Assembly (NCBI GenBank): GCA_017540265.1
Contig: JAFYBJ010000002.1
Coordinates: forward strand, 1-44,269
DNA length: 44,269 nt
Source of the DNA: Lachnospiraceae bacterium
Lineage (GTDB): Bacteria > Bacillota > Clostridia > Lachnospirales > Lachnospiraceae
Direction of reading: 5' to 3'
Made by a program: the position numbers and the translations under genes
Shown: piece after piece, positions 2,563 to 24,770 of the stretch
Layout of the letters: each line of letters begins with the position of its first letter
Position numbering within the stretch: the first letter of the stretch is position 1
Notes under the pieces: generated by a model
Database searches by the model: none
Told to the model about the DNA's origin: nothing
The model's input: only the letters and a program-made list of their open reading frames with translations

Positions 2563-2591
2563 TGGAAAATTTATAAAAAAGGAACAATGAT

Positions 2592-2620
2592 AAAAAGGAG
2601 CCTCAGGGTTCCTTTTTTTT
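2592..2620 (+). terminator. Intrinsic terminator of serC-serA
   Basis: A-tract, stem GGAGCC (2597-2602), loop TCAG, stem GGTTCC (2607-2612, one G-U pair), then eight T residues. It ends the serine operon. It also shows that the in-frame ATG at 2587 cannot be the start of the next gene. Confidence 0.85.
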
Positions 2621-2639
2621 GTCTGATTGCCGATATATA

Positions 2640-2668
2640 TTACAATATGTGTCATTTCGTGGTAAAAT
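2640..2668 (+). promoter_or_regulatory. Candidate promoter of the secreted repeat protein
   Basis: TAAAAT at 2663-2668 is preceded, 17 bases upstream, by a poor -35 (TTACAA, 2640-2645). The hexamer ends 8 bases before an ATG at 2677 and 14 before an ATG at 2683, so the transcript would have almost no leader. Confidence 0.4.
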
Positions 2669-2682
2669 TACGGGGTATGGAT

Positions 2683-5307
2683 ATGAATAGTCTGAAAAAA
2701 TATTTTGTTTATCTGCTTACGTTTATCCTTCTTTTTTCGGATATGTCTGTTTATGCGGGACAGATATCATTTTATGATGATACAACCGTCATATCTGAAT
2801 CATTTAGCGTGGACGCATCAGCCGATGCCACTTCAAATTATGTAAATCAGTATTATACCGTAATATTCAACCGTAACTGCACAACGCAGATCACCGGATC
2901 GCCGATGCTGCCGCAGAGCATAAAGACAGGCATGACTGTTGCCTTAAAGAAAAATACCATGGGAAGGAAGGGGTATGCCTTCTATGGCTGGAATACGGAA
3001 AAAGACGGCAGCGGCGTTATGTACGGCGATGAGGCTAAGGTCAGAAATCTTGCACCGTCAGGCAAAAGCATGATCCTTTACGCCCAGTGGATCTCAACAG
3101 ATATAAGCTTAAGCTTAAATACAGTGTCTTTAAATCTTGCGGAAGATGATGATCCGTTCCTTCTTACAGCATCCTATTTACCGGAACAGCCATCTAAAGA
3201 AGCTCCCGTATGGAATAATTCCAACGAAGCTGTTGTAACGCTTTCGGAAAACTCATCGGACGAGATGAGTGTTTATGTATGTCCGGTATCAGCCGGTGAG
3301 TCTAAGATCACATTTTCCATTTATGGGTTTTCCATATCCTGCAATGTTACGGTAAGAGAAACAGAGAAAAAAGATGAAGAGGAAGAAAAACCTTCGGAAT
3401 ATGATTATGAATCGGAGGATCTTTCTGATGCGCTTACCAAAAGAGATATAGCGCTTTATGCGGATGGAAAGGTTCCCGACGGGCTCTGGGTCGCAGGACT
3501 TGAGGAATCCTACCTTTATACGGGAAAGAAGATAAAGCCTGCCGTAAGGGTCTATAACAGGGACGAGAGACTGACCGAAAAAGTAGATTATAAGATTACT
3601 TATACCCGCAATACAAATGCAAGAAAAAAGACCGCGGAGTTCCCGCCTGCCATCATCCTTCGCATGAAGGGGGATTTTTCCGGAACCCAGTATATACCGT
3701 TTACCATAGAACCTGTAGATATGAAATTTACTGAAGCCTATGATCTTGTGCTCCAGCACAACAGAGATCTTAAATATTTAAGGCCTCTTATCGTATACAA
3801 CGGAAAGACATTAAAGAGGAATGTTGATTTTACCGTAGACAGCGAGCATGGCATGATGGCATCCACGTCCAAGGCCGGTGAGGCGGTGAAGATAGAAGGT
3901 ATGGGTAATTTTAAGAACAGCATAAGTATAAACGTGACCATTTACCCGGATATAATATCAATAAAAAAGGCACGTATAGTTGTTGAAGAAACGGATTATG
4001 ACGAGGCGGAAGTATTAAAATACGGGGGTGTGGTGCTTAATGATAATGAGCTGCGCGTCTTCTGCAACAGGAAACGTCTGACAAAAGACGTGGATTATGC
4101 AGTCACTTATGAAAATAATGATTCCGTAGGAATGGGTGTGGCCGTGATACACGGGATCGGTGATTATGCCGGTACCGTGAGAAAAAAATTCACAATAAAC
4201 GGAAATAAAAAATATAAGATCTTTAATGTTGATAATACAAGGATCCATCTCGATAAAGTGGCATATACGGAATATTTCCAGGTTCATTATTCCGGCCGCA
4301 GGGTAAGACCTGCGGTTACGGATCTTTATATCGGTGACGAGCTGCTTACCGAAGGAAAGGATTATGAGATCTCTTATGAGAACAATCTTAAGACCGGAAC
4401 GGCTTTTGTTGTTATCACCGGAAAGGGCAAATGCAGCGGCGAAAAAAAGCTGCCCTTTAAGATAATACCTGTTAATATCGAATTTACCGCAACAGCCGGA
4501 TTCACATCAGGGACGGAGCAGTACATATTCAAGAAGGGCGGAGTGAGGCCGAATGTTACGGTAAAGCTTATTGACAGCGGGAAAGTACTTGTCGAAGGCA
4601 GGGATTACAGGCTTAAATTTAAAAACAATAAAAGATGCGGAAATGCGGTTGTTACCGTTAAGGCCATAGGAAATTATATGGGCAGCTTAAAGCTCCAGTT
4701 TGATATCCTTAAAAGGACCGAAAACGGTACCGTGCTCATGACTGCCGTGCCGGAAACCTACAGCAGTAAAAAAGGCGACTGGAAGGCTGCACTGGCAGTA
4801 TACGATTTAAGAAGCGGAAAGCTTCTTACTCACGGTGTTGATTACAGAAATGTAAAATATACTCTTGCTGACGGCAGTATCATATCCGAAAATGCTGCCC
4901 TTCCAAACGGAACGGTGATAAAAATAAAGGCTGACGGAATCAGGGCTTTTGAAGGTTTAAGCTTTGAAGATGAATATACGATAGGCGAAAAGAATCTTTT
5001 ATCGGCTAAGGTTGAATTTGACGGAGACGGTGAGGGAGGAAGTTCTGCTCCGGAATTCATATACAGCGGGGATAATATAGTTCCCGCCGTTCAAAACGGA
5101 GAGATAAAAGTATATATGAACGGTGAGGAGCTTAAATACGGTACTGATTACACCGTCATATTTGATGCTTCATTACGCCGTGTTAATCATGGAATCTATC
5201 CCATATCCGTGATCGGCACAGGAGCATATTGCGGAATGAATACGGTTTACTATACCATTGCCCCCAGACCGGTGCGCCGGTACTGGTACGGCAATGCAGA
5301 AAAATAA
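2683..5307 (+). CDS. Secreted protein with InlB B-type repeat, Big2-like domain and about seven Ig-like repeats
   Basis: The 874-residue product begins with a signal peptide (LKKYFVYLLTFILLF, cleavage probably after VYAG). An InlB B / Listeria-Bacteroides repeat spans about 57-135 (GYAFYGWNTEKDGSG, ending LYAQW). A Big2-like Ig domain covers about 137-223, followed by an acidic linker. From about 270 to the end come roughly seven diverged copies of a unit with the pattern GxDYxVxYxNN, xGxAxVxIxGxGxYxG, a repeat common in clostridial surface proteins. There is no LPXTG motif, cell-wall-binding repeat or C-terminal membrane helix, so retention at the wall is unexplained. An ATG at 2677 is an alternative start; GGGG at 2672-2675 is better spaced for 2683. 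DUF1015 follows after 18 bases, so the two are probably co-transcribed. The ligand is unknown. Confidence 0.85.
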   Translation: MNSLKKYFVYLLTFILLFSDMSVYAGQISFYDDTTVISESFSVDASADATSNYVNQYYTVIFNRNCTTQITGSPMLPQSIKTGMTVALKKNTMGRKGYAFYGWNTEKDGSGVMYGDEAKVRNLAPSGKSMILYAQWISTDISLSLNTVSLNLAEDDDPFLLTASYLPEQPSKEAPVWNNSNEAVVTLSENSSDEMSVYVCPVSAGESKITFSIYGFSISCNVTVRETEKKDEEEEKPSEYDYESEDLSDALTKRDIALYADGKVPDGLWVAGLEESYLYTGKKIKPAVRVYNRDERLTEKVDYKITYTRNTNARKKTAEFPPAIILRMKGDFSGTQYIPFTIEPVDMKFTEAYDLVLQHNRDLKYLRPLIVYNGKTLKRNVDFTVDSEHGMMASTSKAGEAVKIEGMGNFKNSISINVTIYPDIISIKKARIVVEETDYDEAEVLKYGGVVLNDNELRVFCNRKRLTKDVDYAVTYENNDSVGMGVAVIHGIGDYAGTVRKKFTINGNKKYKIFNVDNTRIHLDKVAYTEYFQVHYSGRRVRPAVTDLYIGDELLTEGKDYEISYENNLKTGTAFVVITGKGKCSGEKKLPFKIIPVNIEFTATAGFTSGTEQYIFKKGGVRPNVTVKLIDSGKVLVEGRDYRLKFKNNKRCGNAVVTVKAIGNYMGSLKLQFDILKRTENGTVLMTAVPETYSSKKGDWKAALAVYDLRSGKLLTHGVDYRNVKYTLADGSIISENAALPNGTVIKIKADGIRAFEGLSFEDEYTIGEKNLLSAKVEFDGDGEGGSSAPEFIYSGDNIVPAVQNGEIKVYMNGEELKYGTDYTVIFDASLRRVNHGIYPISVIGTGAYCGMNTVYYTIAPRPVRRYWYGNAEK

Positions 5308-5325: not shown

Positions 5326-6561
5326 ATGGCAGTAATAAGACCTTTTAAAGCAGTAAGACCGGCAAGCGGTATGGAAGGGAAGATAGCAGCCCTTCCTTAT
5401 GACGTTTATTCAAGAGAAGAAGCTAAGGAAGTGGTTAAAGCAAATCCGGATTCCTTTCTTGCGATAGACAGGGCGGAGACTTCTTTTCCAGATGATGTGG
5501 ATACCTATGCCGATGAAGTATATGAAAGAGCCGCATCACTACTTAAGGAACGTATTGCAAAAGGTGATTTTATCACGGAAGAAAAGCCCTGTTATTATAT
5601 TTATGAGCTCACCATGGACGGGCGGACACAGACAGGCATCACTGCATGTGCATCAATAGATGATTATGAAAATGCCGTGATAAAAAAGCATGAGAATACA
5701 AGAGCCGATAAGGAAGTAGACAGGATAAGGCACGTGGATACCTGCTCGGCACAGACCGGTCCCATATTCCTGGCTTACAGGGAAGATGAAAGTATAAGTG
5801 CGGTTGTAAACCGCATAAAGCAGGGCAGCGCACTTTATGATATCACTTCCGATGATGGCATAAGGCACAGGGTGTTTATTGTCGATGATGAAAATGATAT
5901 CAATACCATTAAGGAACGTTTTGCATCGATAAATTCAATTTACATCGCTGACGGGCATCACCGTTGCGCTTCCGCCGTAAAGGTAGGCTTAAAGAGAAGA
6001 GAGGAAAATCCTGGATTTACGGGAGATGAGGAGTTTAATTATTTCCTTTCCGTTCTTTTCCCTGACAATGAACTGATGATCATGGATTACAACAGGGTTG
6101 TTCATGATCTGGGCGGCAATACAGCCGAAAGTTTTATTGAGAAGATAAAGAACAGGTTTGAAGTAAGCGCTCCGGCAGCCGGAGCCGTAAAACCCGGAAA
6201 AAAGGGCAGTTTCGGAATGTATCTTGACGGAAAGTGGTATAGCCTTGCAATAAAGGATGAGTATAAAAATGATGATCCCGTGGAAGGCCTTGATGTTTCT
6301 TTACTTCAGAAATATGTCCTGGATGAGATACTTGGTATATCCGATCCGAAGACCGATAAGAGAATAGAATTTACCGGCGGTATCAGAGGGCTTAAGGAGC
6401 TTGAAAAGAGAGCTGATCTTTTCGGTGGTGTGGCTTTTTCAATGTATCCTACTTCTATCGGCGAATTGTTTGATGTGGCAGATGCGGGAAGGCTGATGCC
6501 GCCCAAGTCCACTTGGTTCGAACCTAAATTAAGAAGCGGACTGTTCATACATTTGATATAA
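5326..6561 (+). CDS. DUF1015 family protein (COG4198) with DGHHR motif
   Basis: The 411-residue product is full length for DUF1015; its start AVIRPFKAVRP and the block YIADGHHRCASAV (D209-R213) are family signatures. The family is uncharacterised. Members often lie next to serC and serA in clostridia, and here the gene is one gene away. The DGHHR motif resembles the one in ParB/sulfiredoxin-fold proteins that include the archaeal free-serine kinase SerK; a role in serine or phosphoserine metabolism is therefore an inference, not a demonstration. An AGGAG site lies about 9 bases before the ATG. No signal peptide or membrane segment is seen, so it is cytosolic. Confidence 0.88.
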   Translation: MAVIRPFKAVRPASGMEGKIAALPYDVYSREEAKEVVKANPDSFLAIDRAETSFPDDVDTYADEVYERAASLLKERIAKGDFITEEKPCYYIYELTMDGRTQTGITACASIDDYENAVIKKHENTRADKEVDRIRHVDTCSAQTGPIFLAYREDESISAVVNRIKQGSALYDITSDDGIRHRVFIVDDENDINTIKERFASINSIYIADGHHRCASAVKVGLKRREENPGFTGDEEFNYFLSVLFPDNELMIMDYNRVVHDLGGNTAESFIEKIKNRFEVSAPAAGAVKPGKKGSFGMYLDGKWYSLAIKDEYKNDDPVEGLDVSLLQKYVLDEILGISDPKTDKRIEFTGGIRGLKELEKRADLFGGVAFSMYPTSIGELFDVADAGRLMPPKSTWFEPKLRSGLFIHLI

Positions 6562-6574
6562 ATACAATACCGGC

Positions 6575-6603
6575 TGTCATCCTTCGCTTCGCTCAGGATG
6601 ACA
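6575..6603. repeat. Intergenic palindrome of the dispersed TGTCATCCT...AGGATGACA type
   Basis: Perfect 9-base arms TGTCATCCT (6575-6583) and AGGATGACA (6595-6603) enclose an 11-base loop with the duplicated word TCGCT. Read on the minus strand the core is GAGCGAAGCGAAGG, a sequence I recall as a widespread intergenic repeat in many bacteria. There is no T-tract, so it is not a classic terminator. It lies wholly in the 81-base gap between DUF1015 and the branching-enzyme homologue. Only one copy is in this window. Confidence 0.75.
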
Positions 6604-6642: not shown

Positions 6643-9021
6643 ATGAATAAAAAATTATACAGACTTATGGACTGGGCAGCCATAGAAGAGGTTACTTACG
6701 GTGAATGCAGCAGACCATCGGAGATCCTTGGAGCTCATGCCATAGGAAGGCAGATGCTCGTACAGTGCTTTTTTCCGGGGGCTTTGAAAGTAAATCTTCA
6801 GCTGCTTGATAAAAAAGCTGCGAGGGGGAAGCTCGTTAAAGATGAGATCCCGATGGAACTTGCGGATGAAGCGGGCTTTTTTGCGGCACTCATATCCACG
6901 TCCGATGCAAAGGATTACAGATATCAGGTTGTATATGGAGACAGTGAAAAGATAATCCCCGAGCTCTACGGAAAGGGCAGGATACTTGAAGATGAAAAGG
7001 AAGAGGCCTTTATCTCGGGCTCGGATCTTAAAGCATATGAATATATGGGCGGGCACAAAAAGACAGTCCGCGGCATAAGAGGTTCCGTATTCAGGGTATA
7101 TGCACCCGGCGCCGTAAGCGTATCACTTCTTTGCCGGAGTTTTTCTTTTAACGGATTGCAGATGCCTATGGACAGGCTTCCCTCCGGTATTTATGAGCTT
7201 TTCGTACCCGGTATTGAAGCCGGAGAAGAATACTGTTTTGAAGTGGTAATGAAAGACGGTACACGTATAAGGAAAGCCGATCCTTTTGCCTTGTATTCTC
7301 CGGGGGCATCAGACGGCTTGAGCGTGATAGCTGATCTTTCCTCCTTTTCATGGAAGGATGCGGAGTGGATAAAGAAAAGAAACGGCGATAAGCTTAATAT
7401 TTATGAGATATCCCTGCCTTCCTGTATTTCGGATGACGGCTTTGACATAAAAGATCTTGCGGCTTCACTCGCTTTATATGCAAAAAATATGGGCTATACA
7501 CATGTGAGCTTAAGGCCTTTTATGGAATATGAAAAGGATGAGGAATGCGGATACGGTACGGTACAGTTTTTTGCTCCTTCTTCGCGTTTCGGCACGCCCG
7601 ATGATTACAGGGGGTTTGTAAATATACTTCATGAGAATGGTATAGGAGTTATCGCACAGTGGAATTTCAGGGAATTCTCAAATGTTTCCTACGGCCTGGC
7701 CGGCTTTGACGGAACAGCTCTTTATGAATATTCGGATCATAAAAGGGGCTTTGATAAGAAAAACGGAAGGCTTGTCTTCGACCTTTCCGATGACCGGATC
7801 ACAGGTTTCTTAAGTTCCGCACTCTTTTATCTGCTTGATGGTTTTCACTTTGACGGAATAGAATTCAAGGACGTGAGCGCTGCACTATATCTGGATTATT
7901 ATAAGGCACCGGATGAATGGACACCCAATATCTATGGCGGTGTGGAAGATCTGCAGACAATAGATTTCCTTAAAGCCGTTAATGCAATGATACATAAGAA
8001 TTTTAAGGGTGTATTTACGATAGCCGAAGAAAACAGCGGATATTCCACGGTTACCGGTACGGGTGATGAGTCTTTGGGCTTTGATCATAAATCAGATATA
8101 GCCCTGGTAAATACGATAGCTGATTATCTCTCACATGATCCCATAGACAGGAAATATCATCATAATGAGCTTACGGACAGCATGCTGTATCAGTTCTGTG
8201 AAGATTATATCTGTCCCGTAAGCGTCTGCCACCTTGATAATCTTCAGGGCGGAATGATAAACCGGATGCACGGAAATGATGCGGAAAAGAAAGAGAATCT
8301 GAAGCTCTTATATGCGTATATGGCTTTCCATACCGGAAGCATGTCTGTATTTATGGGCGAAGAAGCCGGTAATAAAGAATCTTTTGAGGCTATGCGCCGG
8401 ATAAGCATCACACCTTCGGAAGATATGAAGCTTTTCCGCGATTACATGAGGGCTTTAAACAACTTTAAGCTTGCGCATAACAGTGTGTTTTCCATCACAT
8501 CGGATTTTGAATGGATAAGCGAAAATGATGTTGAAAATAACGTATTATCCTTTGTGAGACGTTCCGCTAAAGAAGAGCTCTTCTTTGTATTTAATTTTTC
8601 GGGAAGCGAGCTTAAAAAATTTGAAACGGCTGTGCCCGCAGACGGCAAGTATGAGGAGATATTTGATTCCGCCGCAGAAGCTTACGGCGGCGAGGATAAT
8701 GAAGTACGTTTCTTCCTTGCAAGGGACAAGGCAGTCGGCGGCAGGGATGCATCCTTAGCCATCAGATTAAAGCCTCTTTCGGTTCTTGTATTTTCATATG
8801 TTCCGTATTCAAAAGAGGAAAAAGAGCTTATAGAAAAACGTAAAGCACTTAAGATAAAGAAAAAGGAAGAAGCAAGAAAGAAGCGCATTGAACTTGATAA
8901 AGCTAAGGAAGCAATAAGAAGCGATATAAGATCCGAGCTTGAAAGAAAGATATATGAGGCGGAGGAAGCTATAGCTGCCGGAAGTGAATATAAGAAGAAA
9001 AACGGGAGAAAACAGTCGTGA
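6643..9021 (+). CDS. Glycogen branching enzyme (GlgB/GH13) homologue, predicted inactive, with charged C-terminal helix
   Basis: The 792-residue product follows GlgB architecture: N-terminal domain (MNKKLYRLMDW), a CBM48-like domain at about 140-240, a GH13 barrel at about 250-610, and a beta domain. Family words survive (GLAGFDGTALYE, AALYLDY, EWTPNIYGG, LLYAYMAFHTG), but the catalytic motifs do not. DWVPxHF is QWNFREF (Q339); the nucleophile Asp of DGLRVDAV aligns with K409 in DGIEFKDV; the Asp after His in SHDE aligns with L531 in CHLDN. Only the acid Glu (E462 in TIAEEN) is kept. About 65 Lys/Glu-rich helical residues absent from GlgB end the protein. The frame is intact, so I read it as a pseudoenzyme, perhaps glycan-binding. 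AGGAG at 6631-6635 selects the ATG at 6643. It overlaps the MscS gene by 4 bases. Confidence 0.85.
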   Translation: MNKKLYRLMDWAAIEEVTYGECSRPSEILGAHAIGRQMLVQCFFPGALKVNLQLLDKKAARGKLVKDEIPMELADEAGFFAALISTSDAKDYRYQVVYGDSEKIIPELYGKGRILEDEKEEAFISGSDLKAYEYMGGHKKTVRGIRGSVFRVYAPGAVSVSLLCRSFSFNGLQMPMDRLPSGIYELFVPGIEAGEEYCFEVVMKDGTRIRKADPFALYSPGASDGLSVIADLSSFSWKDAEWIKKRNGDKLNIYEISLPSCISDDGFDIKDLAASLALYAKNMGYTHVSLRPFMEYEKDEECGYGTVQFFAPSSRFGTPDDYRGFVNILHENGIGVIAQWNFREFSNVSYGLAGFDGTALYEYSDHKRGFDKKNGRLVFDLSDDRITGFLSSALFYLLDGFHFDGIEFKDVSAALYLDYYKAPDEWTPNIYGGVEDLQTIDFLKAVNAMIHKNFKGVFTIAEENSGYSTVTGTGDESLGFDHKSDIALVNTIADYLSHDPIDRKYHHNELTDSMLYQFCEDYICPVSVCHLDNLQGGMINRMHGNDAEKKENLKLLYAYMAFHTGSMSVFMGEEAGNKESFEAMRRISITPSEDMKLFRDYMRALNNFKLAHNSVFSITSDFEWISENDVENNVLSFVRRSAKEELFFVFNFSGSELKKFETAVPADGKYEEIFDSAAEAYGGEDNEVRFFLARDKAVGGRDASLAIRLKPLSVLVFSYVPYSKEEKELIEKRKALKIKKKEEARKKRIELDKAKEAIRSDIRSELERKIYEAEEAIAAGSEYKKKNGRKQS

Positions 9022-9992
9022 TAAAACACTTCCTTTATGCAGCGGAAACACTTTCGGAGGGAACAGCCGTTTCGGAAGACAGTGTATCAGGGGCATCGGT
9101 TTCTTTTGCTGATATCCCGCAGTCGGTTTCGGTAGCGGCTGCAGAGAGCGTGGCACAGATAAGCGAGGATATAGATGCCTTCCAGGCTTATCTTGCGACC
9201 ATACCCTCGAAGTTTACGGTTTTTGCGATAAAATTCTTTTTCGCACTTGTAATCTTCATACTGGCATCATTTGCGATCAAATTCATAAGAAAAGTATTAA
9301 AAAAGGCAATGGAAAAGGCAAATGCCGATCTGAGCATCAGACACTTTGCCGATTCCCTTGTAAAGATCATTCTTTATGCAGTGCTTGTGATCGGTTTGGC
9401 TTCATATTTCGGAATAGAGACCACAAGCCTTATAGCTTTACTTGGTTCTGCCGGCGTGACGGTTGCTCTTGCCATACAGGGAAGCTTATCCAATGTGACG
9501 GGCGGTGTGCTCATCCTTCTTTTAAAACCTTTTAAGCTTGGTGACTATATACATGAGGATAATAAAGGCAATGAGGGAACCGTAAAAGAGATAGGGCTTT
9601 TTTATACAAAGCTGCATACCCTTGACGGACGTACCGTAGTCCTGCCAAACGGGCCTTTGGCCAATACCTCCCTTGTTAATGTAAATATGGCTCCCATGAG
9701 ACAGATAATCATGACAGTAGGGATAAGCTACGGGGCCGATATAGATAAGGCAAAGGCCGTGATAGAGAAGGTAATAACCAAAGAAGAGCTGATCCTTCAG
9801 AATATACCCATAAAGGTTTATGTGGAATCCCTCGACAGTTCGGCAGTTACAATAGGACTTCGTGCCTTTGTGAAAAATGAGGATTATTTCCCGGCTAAAT
9901 GGGCGCTTACGGAGAATATAAAGAAAGCCCTGGATGCCGAAGGTGTGGAGATCCCTTTTGACCAGCTGGATGTCCATATAAAAAATGAGTAG
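9018..9992 (+). CDS. Small-conductance mechanosensitive channel, MscS family
   Basis: The 324-residue membrane protein has a non-cytoplasmic-looking N-terminus of about 60 residues, then helices at about 65-90 and 116-133 and the pore helix at about 138-173 with the Gly/Ala-rich MscS signature (GSAGVTVALAIQGSLSN). The cytosolic vestibule (KPFKLGDYI onward) completes the family layout. MscS channels open under membrane tension and release solutes on hypo-osmotic shock. The start is GTG at 9018, overlapping the TGA of the upstream gene (GTGA), with GGGAG at 9004-9008. This implies translational coupling to the inactive branching-enzyme homologue, an unusual partnership. Confidence 0.94.
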   Translation: MIKHFLYAAETLSEGTAVSEDSVSGASVSFADIPQSVSVAAAESVAQISEDIDAFQAYLATIPSKFTVFAIKFFFALVIFILASFAIKFIRKVLKKAMEKANADLSIRHFADSLVKIILYAVLVIGLASYFGIETTSLIALLGSAGVTVALAIQGSLSNVTGGVLILLLKPFKLGDYIHEDNKGNEGTVKEIGLFYTKLHTLDGRTVVLPNGPLANTSLVNVNMAPMRQIIMTVGISYGADIDKAKAVIEKVITKEELILQNIPIKVYVESLDSSAVTIGLRAFVKNEDYFPAKWALTENIKKALDAEGVEIPFDQLDVHIKNE

Positions 9993-10190: not shown

Positions 10191-10226
10191 GACAAGAGTC
10201 GGATATCACTCTTTATGGAGGTTTAT

Positions 10227-12884
10227 ATGGAAAAGTATGGTGTTAACCAATTAAGAAAGATGTTTCTTGAATATTTTGAGGAGAAGGGGCATCTTAAGAT
10301 GAACAGTTTCTCCCTTGTTCCTCATAATGATAATTCTCTTTTGATCATCAATTCCGGAATGGCTCCCTTAAAGCCTTATTTTACAGGTCAGGAGATCCCT
10401 CCCAGAAAAAGAGTGACCACATGTCAGAAATGCGTGCGTACCGGAGATATCGATAATGTAGGTAAGACCGCGCGTCACGGCACCTTTTTTGAGATGTTAG
10501 GAAATTTTTCCTTCGGTGATTATTTTAAGAAGGAAGCAATCCCCTGGGCGTGGGAATTCCTTACGGAGACCGTAGGCCTTGATCCCGACAGGCTTTATCC
10601 TTCCGTGTATGTGGATGATGATGAAGCTTACAGGATATGGAACGAAGATATGAAGATACCGGCAGACCGTATCTTCAAATTCGGTAAGGAAGATAATTTC
10701 TGGGAGCATGGTTCCGGTCCCTGCGGTCCCTGTACCGAGATATATTATGACAGGGGAGAAAAATACGGATGCGGAAAGCCCGGGTGCACCGTAGGCTGTG
10801 ACTGTGACAGATATATGGAAGTCTGGAACGTGGTATTCTCACAGTTTGACAATGACGGTCACGGTAATTATTCGGATCTTGTCCAGAAAAATATTGATAC
10901 CGGAATGGGACTCGAAAGACTTGCCGTTGCAGTGCAGGATGTTGATTCCATATTCGACGTGGATACTTTAAAGAGCCTTCGCGATGCAGTATGCGGTATG
11001 TCGGGAAAGACCTATCATGCTTCGGATAGGGATGACGTTTCCATCAGGGTGATCACCGACCATATACGTTCCGCTACATTTATGATATCCGACGGCATCA
11101 TGCCTTCAAATACGGGACGCGGCTACGTATTAAGAAGGATAATACGACGCGCCTGCAGGCACGGAAAGCTTTTAGGCATAGACGGAGCTTTCCTTACAAA
11201 GCTTGCCGATGTAGTCATCGAGGGTTCAAAGGACGGATACCCCGAGCTTGAAGAAAAGAAATCATTCATAATGAATGTTATAAGCGAGGAAGAAGAGAAG
11301 TTTGAAAAGACCATAAATCAGGGTCTTGAGATACTTGACGGTATGATCAATTCTCTTTCAGGTAAAAAGGTGCTTTCGGGAGAAGACGGATTTAAGCTCT
11401 TTGATACTTTTGGTTTCCCTGTGGATCTCACAAAAGAGATACTTGAGGAAAAGGGCATAAGCCTTGATGAGGAAGGCTTTGAAAAGGCGGCAAAGGAGCA
11501 CAAGGAAAAAGCAAAGGGCTCATGGAAAAAGACAAATTATATGGGCGCTGCTTCAACCGTTTATGAGGAGCTTGATGCTGCACTTAATACTGAATTTACG
11601 GGTTATGACAGTCTTGAGGCTTCGGAAGAGATAGCAGCCCTCTGCCTGCTTCATCCTGAAGGAGATGAGGAGGATTCCGTATCCGAAGCTTTGTCGGAAG
11701 GTGAGCACGGAGCTGTTATCACGAGAAAGACTCCTTTCTACGGGACGATGGGCGGACAGGTCGGCGACACCGGCGTGATCAGCACTTCCGACGGTGAATT
11801 TAAAGTGACTGAGACGATTCATGTTGCAGGCTCCAAGATAGCTCATGTAGGTGTTGTTACAAAGGGAATGATAAAGAAAGGTGACAGAGCCGTCCTTAAG
11901 GTTAATGAAAAGGGCCGCATGGATACCTGCAGAAACCACTCTGCGACTCATCTTATGCAGAAAGCTTTAAGGGAAGTGCTTGGAAGCCATGTTGAACAGA
12001 AGGGCTCCTATCAGGATCCGGAAAAGACCAGGTTTGACTTCAGCCACTTTAAAGCAATGACTGCAGAAGAATTAAAGCAGGTTGAAGAAATAGTAAACGA
12101 AAAGATAGCTGCAGCGCTTTTGGTCGACACAAAGGAAATGAGTATCGAAGAGGCCAAGAAGACCGGCGCAATGGCGCTTTTTGGTGAAAAATACGGTGAC
12201 AGGGTAAGGGTTGTAAATATGGGCGACTGGTCCGTTGAATTATGCGGAGGTACACATGTAAAGAACACGAGCCAGATATCCCAGTTTAAGATTGTATCCG
12301 AAAGCGGCGTATCTGCCGGCGTCAGACGTATCGAAGCGATAAGCGGCGATAATGTAAGAAAGTATTATGAGAAGCTTGAGAGTCAGGCAGATGAGGCTGC
12401 GGCTTTACTTAAGACTACTCCTTCCGAGCTTGCCGAGCACATAAAGAAGCTTCAGGCTGAGCTTAAGGCTCTAAAGAGTGAAAATGAATCCTTAAAGAAC
12501 AAGGCAGCTTCCGGTCAGCTTGAAGGTGTTCTTGATAAGGTCCTTGATATTAACGGCGTGAAGTTCCTTGCTGCAAGCGTTGATAATGTGGATATGAACG
12601 GCTTAAGGGATCTCGGAGACAAGTTAAAGGATAAGCTCGGAGACGGAGTTATACTTCTTGTCTCATCAAAGGATGGTAAGGTAAATCTCGTATCCATGGT
12701 GACGGATGAATGCATAAAGAAGGGCGCGCATGCAGGAAATCTTATAAAAGGTGTAGCAGCTCTTGTAGGCGGTGGTGGTGGCGGAAGGCCCAATATGGCA
12801 CAGGCAGGCGGAAAGGATCCTTCGGGTATCCCTGCAGTTATAGAGAAGGCTCCGGAGATACTTAAGTCACAGCTTGAGGCGTAG
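10227..12884 (+). CDS. alaS: Alanine--tRNA ligase
   Basis: AlaRS charges tRNA-Ala and hydrolyses mischarged Ser/Gly-tRNA-Ala. The 885-residue protein has normal length and layout. The class II catalytic core begins with QLRKMFLEYFEEKGH and contains NSGMAPLKPYF. The editing domain carries the zinc-type ligands of HSATHLMQKAL and CGGTHVKNTSQ. A coiled coil follows (ELKALKSENESLKNKA), then a C-terminal DHHA1 domain with VGGGGGGRPNMAQAGG. GGAGG at 10217-10221 lies 5 bases before the ATG at 10227; the upstream in-frame ATG at 10215 overlaps that site and is rejected. I see no T-box (no AGGGTGGnACCGCG-like bulge) in the leader. A TTGACA at 10189-10194 has no convincing -10 partner. Confidence 0.98.
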   Translation: MEKYGVNQLRKMFLEYFEEKGHLKMNSFSLVPHNDNSLLIINSGMAPLKPYFTGQEIPPRKRVTTCQKCVRTGDIDNVGKTARHGTFFEMLGNFSFGDYFKKEAIPWAWEFLTETVGLDPDRLYPSVYVDDDEAYRIWNEDMKIPADRIFKFGKEDNFWEHGSGPCGPCTEIYYDRGEKYGCGKPGCTVGCDCDRYMEVWNVVFSQFDNDGHGNYSDLVQKNIDTGMGLERLAVAVQDVDSIFDVDTLKSLRDAVCGMSGKTYHASDRDDVSIRVITDHIRSATFMISDGIMPSNTGRGYVLRRIIRRACRHGKLLGIDGAFLTKLADVVIEGSKDGYPELEEKKSFIMNVISEEEEKFEKTINQGLEILDGMINSLSGKKVLSGEDGFKLFDTFGFPVDLTKEILEEKGISLDEEGFEKAAKEHKEKAKGSWKKTNYMGAASTVYEELDAALNTEFTGYDSLEASEEIAALCLLHPEGDEEDSVSEALSEGEHGAVITRKTPFYGTMGGQVGDTGVISTSDGEFKVTETIHVAGSKIAHVGVVTKGMIKKGDRAVLKVNEKGRMDTCRNHSATHLMQKALREVLGSHVEQKGSYQDPEKTRFDFSHFKAMTAEELKQVEEIVNEKIAAALLVDTKEMSIEEAKKTGAMALFGEKYGDRVRVVNMGDWSVELCGGTHVKNTSQISQFKIVSESGVSAGVRRIEAISGDNVRKYYEKLESQADEAAALLKTTPSELAEHIKKLQAELKALKSENESLKNKAASGQLEGVLDKVLDINGVKFLAASVDNVDMNGLRDLGDKLKDKLGDGVILLVSSKDGKVNLVSMVTDECIKKGAHAGNLIKGVAALVGGGGGGRPNMAQAGGKDPSGIPAVIEKAPEILKSQLEA

Positions 12885-12911: not shown

Positions 12912-14009
12912 ATGGATAATAATTCAATGAACAATGATAATGGAAATCTGTTCGGAAATAATATGAACTCATCCGGTAATAATGACGCGTTCGGACAGAA
13001 CCTGTTTAATAACAGCTCGTATATGAATACGGGAAGCAATACTGATATGAATACGAACAATACCTACGGAAATACCGGAAACAATACGAACACTACGAAC
13101 AATACGAACAATACGAACAATACAAACAACACAAACAATACAAACAACACAAACAATACAAATAATACCTACCAGACTTCAAATAATACCGGATATCAGA
13201 CTGCGGCTAACGGATACCAGTCGTCCTACAACAACAGCTATCAGAGCAACGGATATCAGAACAATGCTTACCAGAGCAACGGATATCAGAACAACGCTTA
13301 CCAGAGCAACGGATATCAGAACAACGCCTACCAGAACAACGGTTATCATAACAACGCCTACCAGAACAATGGATATCAGAATAACGGATATCAGAACGGG
13401 TATAATAACGGCGCTCCCGCAGTAGAGCCTGCTGACGGCATGGCTACGGCGTCCCTTGTTTTAGGCGTTATGGGATTCTTCTTCGGTTTCCTGTTTTCAA
13501 TCATAGGCCTGATACTTGCCATTGTTGCCGGCAAGAAGGGAAATACCAGCGGAAAGAGGAAGGCCGGTTTTATCACCTCGCTTATTGGTCTTATCCTGGG
13601 GATCATTGTTATTATTATTTCCGTATTTTTTATAGCCGCCATAATCCCTAAGATAGAGGAATATGCCGAGAGGGATAATGACAGTGAATATTCTTCGTAC
13701 GATTATGATTATGATTTTGATTCCGATTATTCTTCTTCGGATGTGCAGGAATTAGAAAACGCTTTTACGGCTGCAATGCTTGATCCTGCCTCCATGGATG
13801 AGGAAGATGAGTATTCCGAGATCCCGGCTCTTGTGGAAGAAGGGATATATGTGTCCGAAACAGATCCTTCCGACAGCGATCTTATGGCAGCATTTTATGA
13901 ATTTGCAGGGGCTAAGGATGCAAAAGAACTTCTTGATAAGTACGGTGCTAACGAGATAGTGATATATTTCGACATGGAATTGTTTGAGGCTTACGTGGAA
14001 ATACAGTAA
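12912..14009 (+). CDS. Membrane protein with Asn/Thr/Gln/Tyr low-complexity N-terminus and DUF4190-like helices
   Basis: The 365-residue product starts with about 175 disordered residues. These contain an Asn-Asn-Thr tandem run (coding bases about 13090-13168) followed by a 10-residue unit of the form YQSNGYQNNA repeated about five times (about 13240-13400). Two hydrophobic helices follow at about 178-207 and 219-243, separated by a basic GKKGNTSGKRKAG loop, the pattern of DUF4190 proteins. An acidic Asp/Ser/Tyr stretch and a C-terminal domain of about 100 residues end it. With the short loop facing the cytosol, both the repeat region and the C-terminus would be outside (inference). AGGGGA precedes the ATG. 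It lies 27 bases after alaS and may share its transcript. Function unknown. Confidence 0.8.
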   Translation: MDNNSMNNDNGNLFGNNMNSSGNNDAFGQNLFNNSSYMNTGSNTDMNTNNTYGNTGNNTNTTNNTNNTNNTNNTNNTNNTNNTNNTYQTSNNTGYQTAANGYQSSYNNSYQSNGYQNNAYQSNGYQNNAYQSNGYQNNAYQNNGYHNNAYQNNGYQNNGYQNGYNNGAPAVEPADGMATASLVLGVMGFFFGFLFSIIGLILAIVAGKKGNTSGKRKAGFITSLIGLILGIIVIIISVFFIAAIIPKIEEYAERDNDSEYSSYDYDYDFDSDYSSSDVQELENAFTAAMLDPASMDEEDEYSEIPALVEEGIYVSETDPSDSDLMAAFYEFAGAKDAKELLDKYGANEIVIYFDMELFEAYVEIQ

Positions 14010-20952: not shown

Positions 20953-22338
20953 ATGAGTAGTTCAACTGGCTCAGCGGGCGAACGTATAAATGCGTTGCTC
21001 GATGAAAAAAGTTTCGTTGAGATCGGAGCAAAGGTAACTGCCCGCGCTACGGATTTCAATCTGAAACAGAAGCAGACTCCTTCCGACGGAGTAGTGACAG
21101 GATACGGCAGCATAGGCGGCAAGCCCGTTTATGTTTACAGTGAAGATCCTGCTGTACTCGGCGGCAGCATAGGAGAGATGCACGCAAAGAAGATCGTAAA
21201 TATCTATGATCTTGCCATGAAGACGGGCACACCCGTTATCGGTATCATTGATTCAACAGGCCTTAGACTTGAAGAGTCAACAGATGCGCTCAATGCGCTT
21301 AGCGAGATCTATGCAAAGCAGGCTCTTGCAAAGGGACTTATACTTCAGATCAGCGCTGTTTTCGGTAATTGCGGCGGCGGTCTTTCTTTTATTCCTGCCA
21401 TCAGTGATTTTACCTTCATTGAAGAGAAGAACGGAAAGCTCTTCGTAAATTCTCCCGATGCCATAAAGGACAATTATACGGAAAAGTGTGATACATCCGC
21501 AGCTGATTTCCAGGCAGGCAAGGCCGGAAATGCTGATTTTTACGGTGATGCAGATTCCATTTATGCAGGCATCAGGGAACTTGTGGAAATGCTTCCTTCA
21601 AACAATGATGATCTTGCGGTAAGCGAGGGAAGTGATGATCTTAACAGAAAGACAGAAGGACTTGCTTCCTTCAAGGGAGATACGGCAGCGCTTCTTGCGA
21701 ATATAGCCGATGATTCCAATTTCATCGAGACAAAGGCTTCCTATGCGAAGGAAATGGTAACAGGTTTCCTTAAGCTTGACGGCATGACAGTAGGATGCAT
21801 AGCAAACAGGAGCGAGATCTTAGGCGATGACGGCAAGGCAAAGGAGAAGTTTGATACAAAACTTACTCCCGAAGGTCTTTCCAAGGCTGCAGATATGGTT
21901 TATTTCTGCGATTCATTCGGTATTCCCGTTCTCACGGTAACCAATGCAGACGGCTATAAGACAACTCTCTGTGCTGAAAAGCGTACGGCAAAGGCAGCTG
22001 CAGAGCTTATACATGCATTCGCAAATTGTGATGTGGCAAGAGTAAATCTTATCGTAGGCAAGGCTATCGGTTCCGCATATTCGGTTATGAATTCCAAGGG
22101 ACTTGGCTGTGATCTTACTTTCTGCTATCCCGATGCGGAGATAGGCCCCATGGAGGCAAAGCTTGCAGCAAAGCTTATCTGCGATGATGCATCAAAGGTT
22201 GATGAGACCGCAAAGCAGATAGCAGCGCTCCAGAACAGCGCTTCTTCCGCAGCCGGCCGTGGCTATGTTGATGCCGTTATAGAGCCGGATGATACAAGAA
22301 AGCATCTCATATACGCATTTGAAATGCTTTTTGCATGA
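20953..22338 (+). CDS. Biotin-dependent carboxyltransferase (methylmalonyl-CoA decarboxylase alpha / acyl-CoA carboxylase type)
   Basis: The 461-residue product belongs to the crotonase-fold acyl-CoA carboxyltransferases. Family blocks include SDGVVTGYGSIGGKPVYVYS, LGGSIGEMHAKKI, the oxyanion Gly block GNCGGGLSFIPA, FCDSFGIPVLTV and YSVMNSKGLGCDLTF. In MmdA-like proteins this subunit moves CO2 between an acyl-CoA and biotin. It is about 50 residues shorter than typical MmdA (about 510). The AGG(A/V)Y-like second oxyanion region reads GSAYSVM. It heads an operon with OadG-, biotin-carrier-, OadB- and OadA-like genes, so the biotin carrier is shared. GGAGG at 20941-20945 fits the ATG. The acyl-CoA substrate is not evident. 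Confidence 0.87.
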   Translation: MSSSTGSAGERINALLDEKSFVEIGAKVTARATDFNLKQKQTPSDGVVTGYGSIGGKPVYVYSEDPAVLGGSIGEMHAKKIVNIYDLAMKTGTPVIGIIDSTGLRLEESTDALNALSEIYAKQALAKGLILQISAVFGNCGGGLSFIPAISDFTFIEEKNGKLFVNSPDAIKDNYTEKCDTSAADFQAGKAGNADFYGDADSIYAGIRELVEMLPSNNDDLAVSEGSDDLNRKTEGLASFKGDTAALLANIADDSNFIETKASYAKEMVTGFLKLDGMTVGCIANRSEILGDDGKAKEKFDTKLTPEGLSKAADMVYFCDSFGIPVLTVTNADGYKTTLCAEKRTAKAAAELIHAFANCDVARVNLIVGKAIGSAYSVMNSKGLGCDLTFCYPDAEIGPMEAKLAAKLICDDASKVDETAKQIAALQNSASSAAGRGYVDAVIEPDDTRKHLIYAFEMLFA

Positions 22339-22363
22339 TTAATTTAAGGAGAGGTTTTCGGTT

Positions 22364-23176
22364 ATGAGAAAAAAGATCGGTTTATATCTCCTCACGCTGA
22401 TATGTCTCATGAGTCTTTCTGCCTGCGGTACGAAGGAACCCGCAAGGATACAGTCGGAGGAATCCGCAGCGCAGATAAAGAACGTCACTGAGAATATTGC
22501 GCTGATGCTCTCATCAGGTGATTTTGAGAGCCCCGAATATATCGCTACTCTGGATAATTCCACAGATTATGAATCAGAGACGATGGGAGAGAATTTCAGA
22601 AGATATACAGGTTTCTATCTTGACGCAAAGACATTATCCAAGGCAGTTCATTCGTATCAGGATTCCATCGCTGATATCGGTGATCCGGTTTTTGAAAACA
22701 ATGCTGACGGAAAAATGCGCATTGATATAAAAGCTGATGAGAAGGAAGCTATAGCAACAGTTTATATTGACGGTAGTATTCATGACGGAACCATAGAGCT
22801 TATCGTAGATGACAATTTTGTTATCAACAGTGTCACTACAAATGTTAAGCTTACACTTTCCGAATCCATGAAGAAGGCCGGAATGAATACAATGATCGGC
22901 ATGGGCACCGTGTTTGTAATGCTCATAGTGATATCCTTTGTTATCTCGGCAATGGGTATCATTCCCAAGCTTCAGAACAGTAAGAATAAGAAAAGCGAAG
23001 ATACCGAGAAATCGGTGGAGAAGACCATCGCTTCCATTGTTGAAAGAGAAGAGTCTTCAGTGCCCGAATCCGATGATACTGAGCTTGCGGCAGTTATAGC
23101 TGCTGCAGTAGCCGCATTTGAAGGTAGTGTAAACACTGACGGCTTTGTTGTAAGAAGCATACGCAGAATAAGATAA
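22364..23176 (+). CDS. OadG-family membrane subunit with N-terminal lipoprotein domain
   Basis: The 270-residue product begins with a lipoprotein signal, lipobox LSAC with Cys21. An extracytoplasmic domain (about 25-175, DUF3887-like in feel) follows. A single helix lies at about 178-201 (GMGTVFVMLIVISFVISAMG), then a cytosolic tail ending AAVIAAAVAAFEGS...GFVVRSIRRIR, the OadG C-terminal signature in Lachnospiraceae. OadG/MmdD subunits assemble the membrane decarboxylase and bind the carboxyltransferase. The topology (outside domain, one helix, cytosolic tail) agrees with that role. The extra lipoprotein domain makes it about three times longer than classical OadG (about 80 residues). AAGGAGAGG precedes the start. 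Confidence 0.85.
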   Translation: MRKKIGLYLLTLICLMSLSACGTKEPARIQSEESAAQIKNVTENIALMLSSGDFESPEYIATLDNSTDYESETMGENFRRYTGFYLDAKTLSKAVHSYQDSIADIGDPVFENNADGKMRIDIKADEKEAIATVYIDGSIHDGTIELIVDDNFVINSVTTNVKLTLSESMKKAGMNTMIGMGTVFVMLIVISFVISAMGIIPKLQNSKNKKSEDTEKSVEKTIASIVEREESSVPESDDTELAAVIAAAVAAFEGSVNTDGFVVRSIRRIR

Positions 23177-23200
23177 GATAATCCCAAGGAGGAAATTAAA

Positions 23201-23566
23201 ATGAAAAACTATACCATCACCGTAAACGGAAACGTATATGACGTTACAGTAGAAGAAGGCGCATCTTCAGGTGCTCCTGTTGCAAAGAGCGCACCCAAGG
23301 CAGCTCCCAAGGCTGCTCCCGCAGCACCCAAGGCAGCTTCAGGCGCAGCTGGATCCGTAAAGGTTGAAGCAGGCGCAGCAGGCAAGGTCCTTAAGATCGA
23401 GAAGAAGGTAGGGGAGGCCGTTAAGAAGGGTGACCCCGTTGTCGTAGTTGAAGCTATGAAGATGGAGATCAACTCCGTAGCTCCCGAGGATGGAACAGTT
23501 GCTTCCATCGATTGTGCTGTAGGAGATACTGTAGAGGCCGGTGCAGTTCTTGCAACGCTTAACTGA
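23201..23566 (+). CDS. Biotin carboxyl carrier subunit (biotinyl domain protein)
   Basis: The 121-residue protein has a short beta start (MKNYTITVNGNVYDVTVEE), a flexible Ala/Pro/Lys linker (about 27-55), and a biotinyl domain with the attachment motif VVEAMKMEI, the biotinylated lysine being K87. It carries CO2 between carboxyltransferase and the membrane beta subunit, equivalent to MmdC/GcdC or the 1.3S transcarboxylase subunit. AAGGAGG lies 10-16 bases before the ATG. It sits in the middle of the operon and is the only biotin domain in the window, so both carboxyltransferases must share it. Confidence 0.96.
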   Translation: MKNYTITVNGNVYDVTVEEGASSGAPVAKSAPKAAPKAAPAAPKAASGAAGSVKVEAGAAGKVLKIEKKVGEAVKKGDPVVVVEAMKMEINSVAPEDGTVASIDCAVGDTVEAGAVLATLN

Positions 23567-23603
23567 CAGTTAAGATAAAAGCTTTAGGAGGTTATCAGAA
23601 CCA

Positions 23604-24770
23604 ATGGGTGAGATACTTAACAATCTGCTGAACCAGATGGCTTTCATGAACCCGGATTTCACTTATAAGAATCTGATCATGATAGCGGTAGCTCTTATCT
23701 TCATGTATCTGGCTATCCATTTTGAATTCGAGCCGCTCTTACTTGTGCCTATTTCTTTCGGCATGCTGCTCGTAAATATTTATCCGGATATCATGTTAAG
23801 CTATGAGGATTCACCGAACGGCATAGGCGGATTACTTTATTATTTCTATAAACTTGATGAATGGGCTATACTTCCTTCACTTATATTCATGGGTGTCGGA
23901 GCAATGACCGACTTCGGTCCTCTTATAGCCAATCCTTCCAGCTTCCTTTTGGGAGCGGCTGCACAGTTCGGGATCTTTGCAGCTTACTTCGGAGCGCTTT
24001 TTGAAGGCGCGATGGGCTGGGCAGATTTCAATGACAAGGCTGCAGCTGCCATTTCGATCATAGGCGGTGCTGACGGTCCTACTTCCATCTTCCTTGCAGG
24101 AAAGCTCGGACAGACAAAATACTTAGGACCTATAGCTGTTGCGGCATATTCCTATATGTCACTTGTGCCTATCATACAGCCGCCCATCATGAAACTTCTT
24201 ACAACAAAGAAGGAAAGATCCATAAAGATGGGTCAGCTTCGTCCCGTTACAAAGCTTGAAAAGATCTTATTCCCCATCATAATCACCATCGTTGTATGTA
24301 TGGTCCTTCCTACTACGGCTCCTCTTGTAGGTATGCTGATGCTCGGAAATCTTTTCCGTGAATCCGGAGTTGTAAGACAGCTCACGGAAACAGCATCAAA
24401 TGCACTTATGTACATTGTCGTTATAGTCCTTGGTACTTCGGTTGGCGCTACAACAAGTGCCGAAGCCTTCCTTAACACGGATACGCTTTTCATCGTTGTG
24501 CTCGGACTTGTGGCATTTGCATTCGGAACCATGGCAGGTGTGCTTTTCGGAAAGCTCATGTGTTTGCTGACCCACGGAAGGGTAAATCCTCTTATCGGAT
24601 CGGCCGGAGTTTCCGCAGTGCCCATGGCTGCCAGAGTTTCCCAGAAAGTCGGCGCAGAAGCGGATCCCACAAACTTCCTGCTCATGCATGCGATGGGACC
24701 CAATGTGGCAGGTGTTATAGGAACTGCCGTTGCTGCCGGAACCTTTATGGCTATTTTCGGAGTATTCTGA
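23604..24770 (+). CDS. Sodium ion-translocating decarboxylase subunit beta (OadB/MmdB/GcdB family)
   Basis: The 388-residue polytopic membrane protein decarboxylates carboxybiotin and couples this to Na+ export. The sequence shows about nine hydrophobic helices and the family signature GGADGPTSIFLAGKLG around residue 155, with the Asp used in Na+ binding. MHAMGPNVAGVIGTAVAAG near the C-terminus is also typical. Length is close to the OadB norm. AGGAGG at 23586-23591 precedes the ATG by 12 bases. It could equally serve oxaloacetate or (methyl)malonyl-CoA decarboxylation; the beta subunits are nearly interchangeable by sequence. Confidence 0.95.
   Translation: MGEILNNLLNQMAFMNPDFTYKNLIMIAVALIFMYLAIHFEFEPLLLVPISFGMLLVNIYPDIMLSYEDSPNGIGGLLYYFYKLDEWAILPSLIFMGVGAMTDFGPLIANPSSFLLGAAAQFGIFAAYFGALFEGAMGWADFNDKAAAAISIIGGADGPTSIFLAGKLGQTKYLGPIAVAAYSYMSLVPIIQPPIMKLLTTKKERSIKMGQLRPVTKLEKILFPIIITIVVCMVLPTTAPLVGMLMLGNLFRESGVVRQLTETASNALMYIVVIVLGTSVGATTSAEAFLNTDTLFIVVLGLVAFAFGTMAGVLFGKLMCLLTHGRVNPLIGSAGVSAVPMAARVSQKVGAEADPTNFLLMHAMGPNVAGVIGTAVAAGTFMAIFGVF

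Follow-up and report, generated by a model that had tools for sequence, protein, structure and literature searches.

What does a glycogen branching enzyme (GlgB) do once its active site is gone? The question is raised by a gene at positions 6643 to 9021 of a 44,269-nucleotide stretch of DNA from a Lachnospiraceae bacterium (GenBank assembly GCA_017540265.1, contig JAFYBJ010000002.1), herein referred to as the window; all window features given below lie on the plus strand. A preliminary description had taken the product to be a full-length GlgB homologue without its catalytic residues, and domain matches, the predicted fold and alignment bore this out. Upon alignment to E. coli K-12 GlgB, from which all residue equivalences were taken, we found that the catalytic triad D405/E458/D526 corresponds to K409 (7867 to 7869), E462 (8026 to 8028) and C529 (8227 to 8229) in the window protein: the nucleophile and the stabiliser are replaced and the acid/base Glu is retained. 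K409 and E462 had been named correctly beforehand; the stabiliser position had been read as L531, two residues off, and a phmmer match to the GlgB of PDB 3k1d also gives C529. Motif I is destroyed as described, with Q339 (7657 to 7659) in place of D335 and E344 in place of H340. In addition, R403 is replaced by E407 and H525 by V528, and the Y300 equivalent is retained. D410 (7870 to 7872) and D532, which had been considered as residues that might occupy the catalytic positions after all, lie one residue past the nucleophile site and three past the stabiliser site, respectively, and the alignment thereby rules out catalysis through shifted aspartates. GlgB belongs to subfamily GH13_9. The window protein is very probably not a GH13 branching enzyme.

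Outside the active site, the protein has the architecture of GlgB as known from E. coli, Cyanothece and V. vulnificus. An uninterrupted frame runs from ATG 6643, which has a Shine-Dalgarno-like GGAG a little 5′ of it, to the stop codon at 9019 to 9021, giving the 792 residues of the preliminary description; an alternative in-frame ATG at 6598 would give an 807-residue form. Pfam places a GlgB_N (N1) domain at 6673 to 6951 (PF22019, 67.7 bits, above cut-off), a CBM48 domain at 7072 to 7290 (PF02922, 56.9 bits) and an Alpha-amylase_C domain at 8512 to 8799 (PF02806, 68.6 bits), at the start of which lies W624. The former catalytic barrel (domain A) extends approximately from 7309 to 8442 according to the AlphaFold secondary structure and a fold match, and the Pfam catalytic-domain model covers just residues 294 to 352 of the 807-residue form. 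This domain order, N1-CBM48-barrel-C, together with the predicted GH13 fold and the alignment, supports descent from GlgB. In contrast to known GlgB, the window protein falls under three curated NCBIfam GlgB equivalog cut-offs (486.7/741, 472.5/577 and 423.0/463.95 bits) and ends in a long charged tail, predicted by AlphaFold to be a single helix (residues 724 to 780, 8812 to 8982). The same genome encodes a second GlgB, paralogue B (L002, on contig G000:C22), which is 649 residues long and 33% identical to the window protein and differs from it in having all catalytic motifs, no tail and scores above three GlgB cut-offs. Since B begins near its CBM48 domain, it seems to be without N1. Tails of at least 30 residues were found in 33/33 orthologues from the window's genus, 11 of 25 other dead copies, 60 of 100 intact relatives and none of nine B copies. 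The idea that another glycogen enzyme shares the tail was rejected, since a same-genome search gave just weak further matches (E 0.0017 and 0.28), located in open reading frames 1186 and 1008 residues long.

The loss is fixed across species of the genus. A long orthologue is present in 33 of 35 genomes, the two without it being 67% and 81% complete, and both the nucleophile and the stabiliser are gone in 33/33; the acid Glu is present in 14 and replaced in 19. All 33 frames are full length (the match in G028 crosses one stop at the extreme end). Identical proteins in Lachnospiraceae records, many of them from the rumen, exist for 29 of the 33, including the isolates NK4A179, AB2028, XPB1003 and NC2008. 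A pseudogene or an assembly fault is ruled out by these 33 species with their four isolate genomes. We term a copy dead when any of the D405, E458 and D526 equivalents is replaced. As controls, D405, E458 and D526 are kept by all nine B copies in the alignment and by 20/20 further B copies of the genus, and 22/22 GlgB from other families of the order (best-matching loci L293, L294 and L296 to L315) are intact.

The protein is also under purifying selection, as the preliminary description had expected of a maintained gene. We estimated the ratio of nonsynonymous to synonymous divergence (dN/dS) from NG86 counts, for which dS was high in several sets and usable pairs were 13/15, 3/6 and 10/15 in three of them. 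Six dead sets from the genus had mean dN/dS values of 0.032, 0.073, 0.096, 0.062, 0.041 and 0.046; paralogue B had 0.040, and five sets of intact copies had 0.050, 0.040, 0.053, 0.052 and 0.064. In matched genus pairs with dS below 1.6 (19 of 378), the median was 0.082 for the dead gene vs 0.043 for B, with the dead gene above B in 18 of 19 and reaching 0.183 at most; the corresponding control in intact genera had a single usable pair of 325 (0.195 vs 0.130 for B). The overall range for the dead protein, 0.03 to 0.18, shows that it is still used. The constraint on dead copies is thus real, if weaker, and nowhere near neutrality.

Is the loss peculiar to this genus? The gene lies in a conserved slot with the order DUF1015-GlgB-MscS-AlaS, in which DUF1015 or MscS adjoins GlgB across the family. 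We drew 160 genomes, 158 of them from other genera at one per genus, and read 88 of the listed matches plus 14 more, with slot membership decided by tree position or context. Among the matches read, the slot gene was found in 89 genera, being broken by the above definition in 20, doubtful in one and intact in 68; 69 of the 158 other-genus genomes had no slot gene among the rows read. The doubtful copy, L137, keeps D, E and D in the alignment and has a damaged motif IV; it was labelled dead in the 165-row, 89-row and host trees described below and counted among the 100 intact rows of the alignment, seven of which lie outside the slot clade. A fragment, L177, was left out of trees and counts. 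Replacements in the other 25 dead rows affect the nucleophile 17 times, the acid 11 times and the stabiliser 20 times; the nucleophile changes conservatively to Asn in L061 and to Glu in L193. An order-wide search added a dead genus, g160 (three species, L290 to L292), which groups with the window's genus in the tree, so catalytic loss may predate the latter. The g160 copies have the residue set DFRSDKHE, unlike those of the window's genus. In a rabbit-gut clade ("Lapin" metagenome-assembled genomes; L167, L170, L194, L196, L197, L199 and L201), the stabiliser alone is lost, to His or Asn. This clade sits on a long stem branch beside the intact Hungatella copy (L086), retains nucleophile and acid, and has a mean dN/dS of 0.115; it is perhaps an early stage of loss.

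The catalytic losses at the slot seem to have happened several times, the trees giving 7 to 13 changes of state. The slot-gene trees were built with the motif columns left out. FastTree on 165 rows, excluding L105, L136 and a third paralogue, C, gave seven changes; mixture-model trees of 73 and 89 chosen rows each gave 11, of which at least eight and at least nine, respectively, are forced by starred branches. On the assumption that active sites, once lost, do not return, the 89-row tree contains 13 all-dead clades; in the same tree the long branches of L138 and L203 meet, and their placement is unsure. Constraining the 73-row tree so that its 32 dead rows form one clade cost 531.9 log-likelihood units, and a single origin is rejected (p-AU 0.00098 in the approximately unbiased test). 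For a host tree unaffected by the rapid divergence of the dead genes, we used the second GlgB of 65 genomes, some of these copies coming from a related N1-bearing clade and not from B proper. The motifs of this second GlgB were read, and were intact, in the genus and dead genomes used; the tree also draws on 41 intact-slot genomes. On this tree the slot state changes 13 times, at least nine of them by starred branches, with weak labels for G069 and for G021, which carries the genus label and in which the slot gene was not found. A single dead clade produced by long-branch joining is ruled out by the AU test and the host tree. Several dead/intact sister pairs agree between gene and host trees (for example, G112/G086, G158/G051 and G094/G164), indicating vertical descent with separate losses.

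A branching-competent paralogue seems to permit the loss of the slot active site. Within the genus, a long B match (about 650 residues) is present in 30 of 33 genomes, with pieces in G007 and G029 and none in G020 (72% complete); paralogue C (about 630 residues) is frequent, and 8/8 copies of it keep the motifs. GlgA scores above cut-off in 35/35 genus genomes and GlgC does so in the window's genome, and the glycogen pathway is thus present. A second GlgB that keeps every motif is present in 15/15 dead genomes (including the doubtful G069), in 6/6 more (including G041, where it lies in two frames) and in 3/3 of g160; the search covered dead genomes other than those of the rabbit-gut clade and of L193, L195, L198 and L203. 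Some of these second copies fall in the related clade bearing an N1 domain. By comparison, of 60 intact-slot genomes, 12 showed no further GlgB at the search threshold and another three showed a C-kind copy only. Two further intact-slot genomes, bringing the coverage to 62 of the 68 intact-slot genera, comprise G068, with an intact B-kind second copy, and G182, without one. Counting the genus and g160 once each and G182 as being without a second intact copy, Fisher's test of dead slot vs second GlgB gives p = 0.004, uncorrected for kinship. In two genomes with a dead slot copy, the second GlgB is itself split in two frames (G041:C176:17156-19140 and G029:C88:5999-7706), which may be real or an assembly fault.

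Which parts of the dead protein have been kept? We scored the positions that are at least 95% conserved in the 100 intact relatives. In the genus, N1 retains a mean fraction of 1.00 (8 positions), CBM48 0.87 (32) and domain C 0.82 (16), with 0.72 for non-motif barrel positions (80) and 0.53 for motifs I to IV (24); the values for the other dead copies are 1.00, 0.96, 0.93, 0.83 and 0.66, respectively. Twelve glucan sites of E. coli GlgB have been tabulated, with sites I, II and VII described as conserved in enterobacteria only (Table 1, PMC10254366). The W628 site (glucan site VI; W624 in the window) is Trp in 33/33 genus, 25/25 other dead, 100/100 intact and 9/9 B copies, and at the W159 site Trp occurs in 28/33 genus and 24/25 other dead copies. 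Judged from these residues, retention of the two sites fits putative α-glucan binding; W628 may instead be kept for structural reasons. New residues have also become fixed in the genus near the old motifs: Y420 (33/33), Q517 and Y522 (32/33 each), and D371 and Q535 (30/33 each), all sites selected after the alignment had been inspected. Position 410 is D or E in 33/33 and Ala in 90 of 100 intact relatives. Since these residues surround the former pocket, it was probably rebuilt, being either plugged or adapted to another ligand.

Taken together, these results lead us to favour, with about an even chance of being right, a GlgB-derived pseudoenzyme with a putative non-catalytic job, most likely α-glucan binding or scaffolding beside an active enzyme by analogy with plant ISA2. 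The slot GlgB of Lachnospiraceae would have had such a job before the losses; with branching taken over by a paralogue, the active site would have become dispensable while the protein stayed. The protein would bind α-glucan through its CBM48 and C-terminal surfaces, and might organise or tune glycogen synthase or the branching enzyme that is still active, in the way ISA2 serves ISA1. In the window's genus, the former pocket would have been remodelled, as a plug or for a different ligand. A bolder version, which we hold tentatively and consider somewhat less probable, is that the catalysis-free function predates the radiation of the family, that about ten separate conversions to a structural or sensing protein followed, and that in the window's genus the pocket was remade to suit a new ligand.

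Several observations weigh against the favoured pseudoenzyme. Relative to B, protein divergence is 3.50-fold in the genus (378 pairs) and 1.63-fold in other dead genera (91) as compared to 1.14 in intact genera (325), the pairs not being independent, and constraint on the dead copies is therefore weaker. The window protein has Phe at the W159 site (F169, 7147 to 7149, in CBM48), the W586 site is lost in the genus, and the W544 and W595 sites are absent even in intact relatives. The slot is not a glycogen operon. Agreement of the predicted fold is partly built in, as the alignment given to AlphaFold included intact homologues. One genome, G182, carries a dead N1-bearing GlgB of 762 residues without slot neighbours (L376, G182:C51:24507-26393) beside an intact slot GlgB, showing that loss is not confined to the slot. 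Finally, dead lineages known from one genome may represent recent loss en route to gene death.

The second GlgB found in each dead genus tested, the faster divergence, the genomes without a slot gene among the rows read, which indicate that the gene can be lost, and the dead copy outside the slot in G182 are what would be expected if the dead copy were a functionless leftover of redundancy on its way to being lost, with the second GlgB doing the branching. We consider such decay unlikely overall: the 33 full-length frames, dN/dS well below 1 and the residues Y420, Q517, Y522, D371 and Q535 fixed in the genus speak against it, and it is disfavoured in the window's genus and, to a lesser degree, in single-genome lineages. 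The fixed residues Y420, D371, Q517 and Q535, together with D or E at 410, would suit a barrel pocket remodelled to bind or act on something else, with D410 as a fixed acidic residue; g160 shares Asp at 410 (3/3), yet is without Y420, D371, Q517 and Q535. However, position 410 varies in other dead lineages (Ser in 12 of 25, Asp in 7), the R403 position is Glu in the window, and position +1 of GH13 strand β-4 should face away from the pocket. We regard new chemistry or a new ligand as about as unlikely as decay. Residual branching by an altered mechanism is very improbable; it could draw on the retained E458 and Y300 equivalents, but the window protein has substitutions at every one of the nucleophile, stabiliser, R403, D335, H340 and H525 positions, and the acid, too, is gone in most of the genus (19 of 33).

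The remaining alternative looks to the neighbouring gene. GH13-derived 4F2hc and rBAT serve transporters, and by analogy the dead GlgB might be a cytosolic pseudoenzyme sensing glucan or osmotic state for a membrane channel. An MscS gene follows GlgB in the same orientation at 28 loci of the genus, 73 intact loci and 23 loci of other dead copies, and in the window there is a 4-base overlap between the GlgB stop and the GTG start of MscS. Against this, the MscS frame extends back across the GlgB stop in just 16/28, 24/73 and 10/23 of these loci; the genus members L028 to L032 (L032 being a short contig) have AlaS and no MscS within the stretch read; and synteny does not demonstrate contact. Coupling to MscS as a general rule was rejected for not being universal, and we think an MscS partner improbable, if less so than residual branching.

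By analogy, the closest precedent for the dead slot GlgB is ISA2, described as a non-catalytic plant paralogue of GH13 debranching enzymes that binds active ISA1, has diverged faster than the active paralogues and is traced to one ancestor (PMC12510319). Both are storage-glucan GH13 pseudoenzymes under selection that diverge faster beside an active paralogue, here B. ISA2, however, belongs to another GH13 subfamily, is eukaryotic and is traced to that one ancestor, whereas the present protein is a bacterial GlgB with several separate losses of its active site. The nearest bacterial case that we found is the chlamydial GlgA-GlgB fusion, whose branching domain is non-functional (PMC7935935, PMC11046441). 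There, too, a bacterial GlgB no longer branches while another GlgB does so, but inactivity is ascribed to the fusion and read as pathway disappearance (PMC7935935); in the present case the gene is kept and it is residues of the active site that have changed. A review reports several glgB homologues in Blautia obeum and Dorea longicatena, in passages that make no mention of lost active sites (PMC10395257). Searches of the open-access literature for GH13 pseudoenzymes or branching enzymes without activity, subscription papers being outside its scope, turned up none that described a GlgB pseudoenzyme from Lachnospiraceae.

One gene slot thus provides several natural replicates of an enzyme turning into a pseudoenzyme, with intact sister genes, and a non-catalytic function becomes testable by comparison. 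If the bolder version is true, a glycogen branching enzyme would be to bacteria what ISA2 is to plants, and in natural replicates. The copies also call for care in annotation. When the window protein and four other dead copies were scanned with the NCBIfam branching-enzyme model TIGR01515, L010, L016 and L055 passed, and L004 and the window protein failed. Since three of five dead copies pass, annotation of rumen and gut genomes can overstate their branching capacity.

In the window, the slot begins with the DUF1015 gene on the left flank (5326 to 6561; PF06245, 398 bits, and synteny); a role of DUF1015 in serine synthesis was considered and not found in print. The MscS-type channel gene on the right flank (9018 to 9992, GTG start) was assigned by family match and synteny, and the next slot gene (10,215 to 12,884), placed by synteny, encodes what we take from its sequence to be AlaS. 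Upstream of the slot, between a 2-hydroxyacid dehydrogenase gene and the DUF1015 gene, a 906-residue protein with a Listeria-Bacteroides repeat domain is encoded at 2587 to 5307; a match to it is also present upstream of the slot in L004. Past AlaS, the product of 12,912 to 14,009 has a long Asn/Thr/Tyr-rich repeat (NTNNT, YQNNGYQNNAY) followed by likely membrane helices, as judged by eye, with DUF4190 slightly below cut-off. Further downstream, after ScpA/ScpB, sodium-pumping-decarboxylase-like genes (carboxyl transferase, OAD gamma and OAD beta) occupy 20,953 to 24,770.
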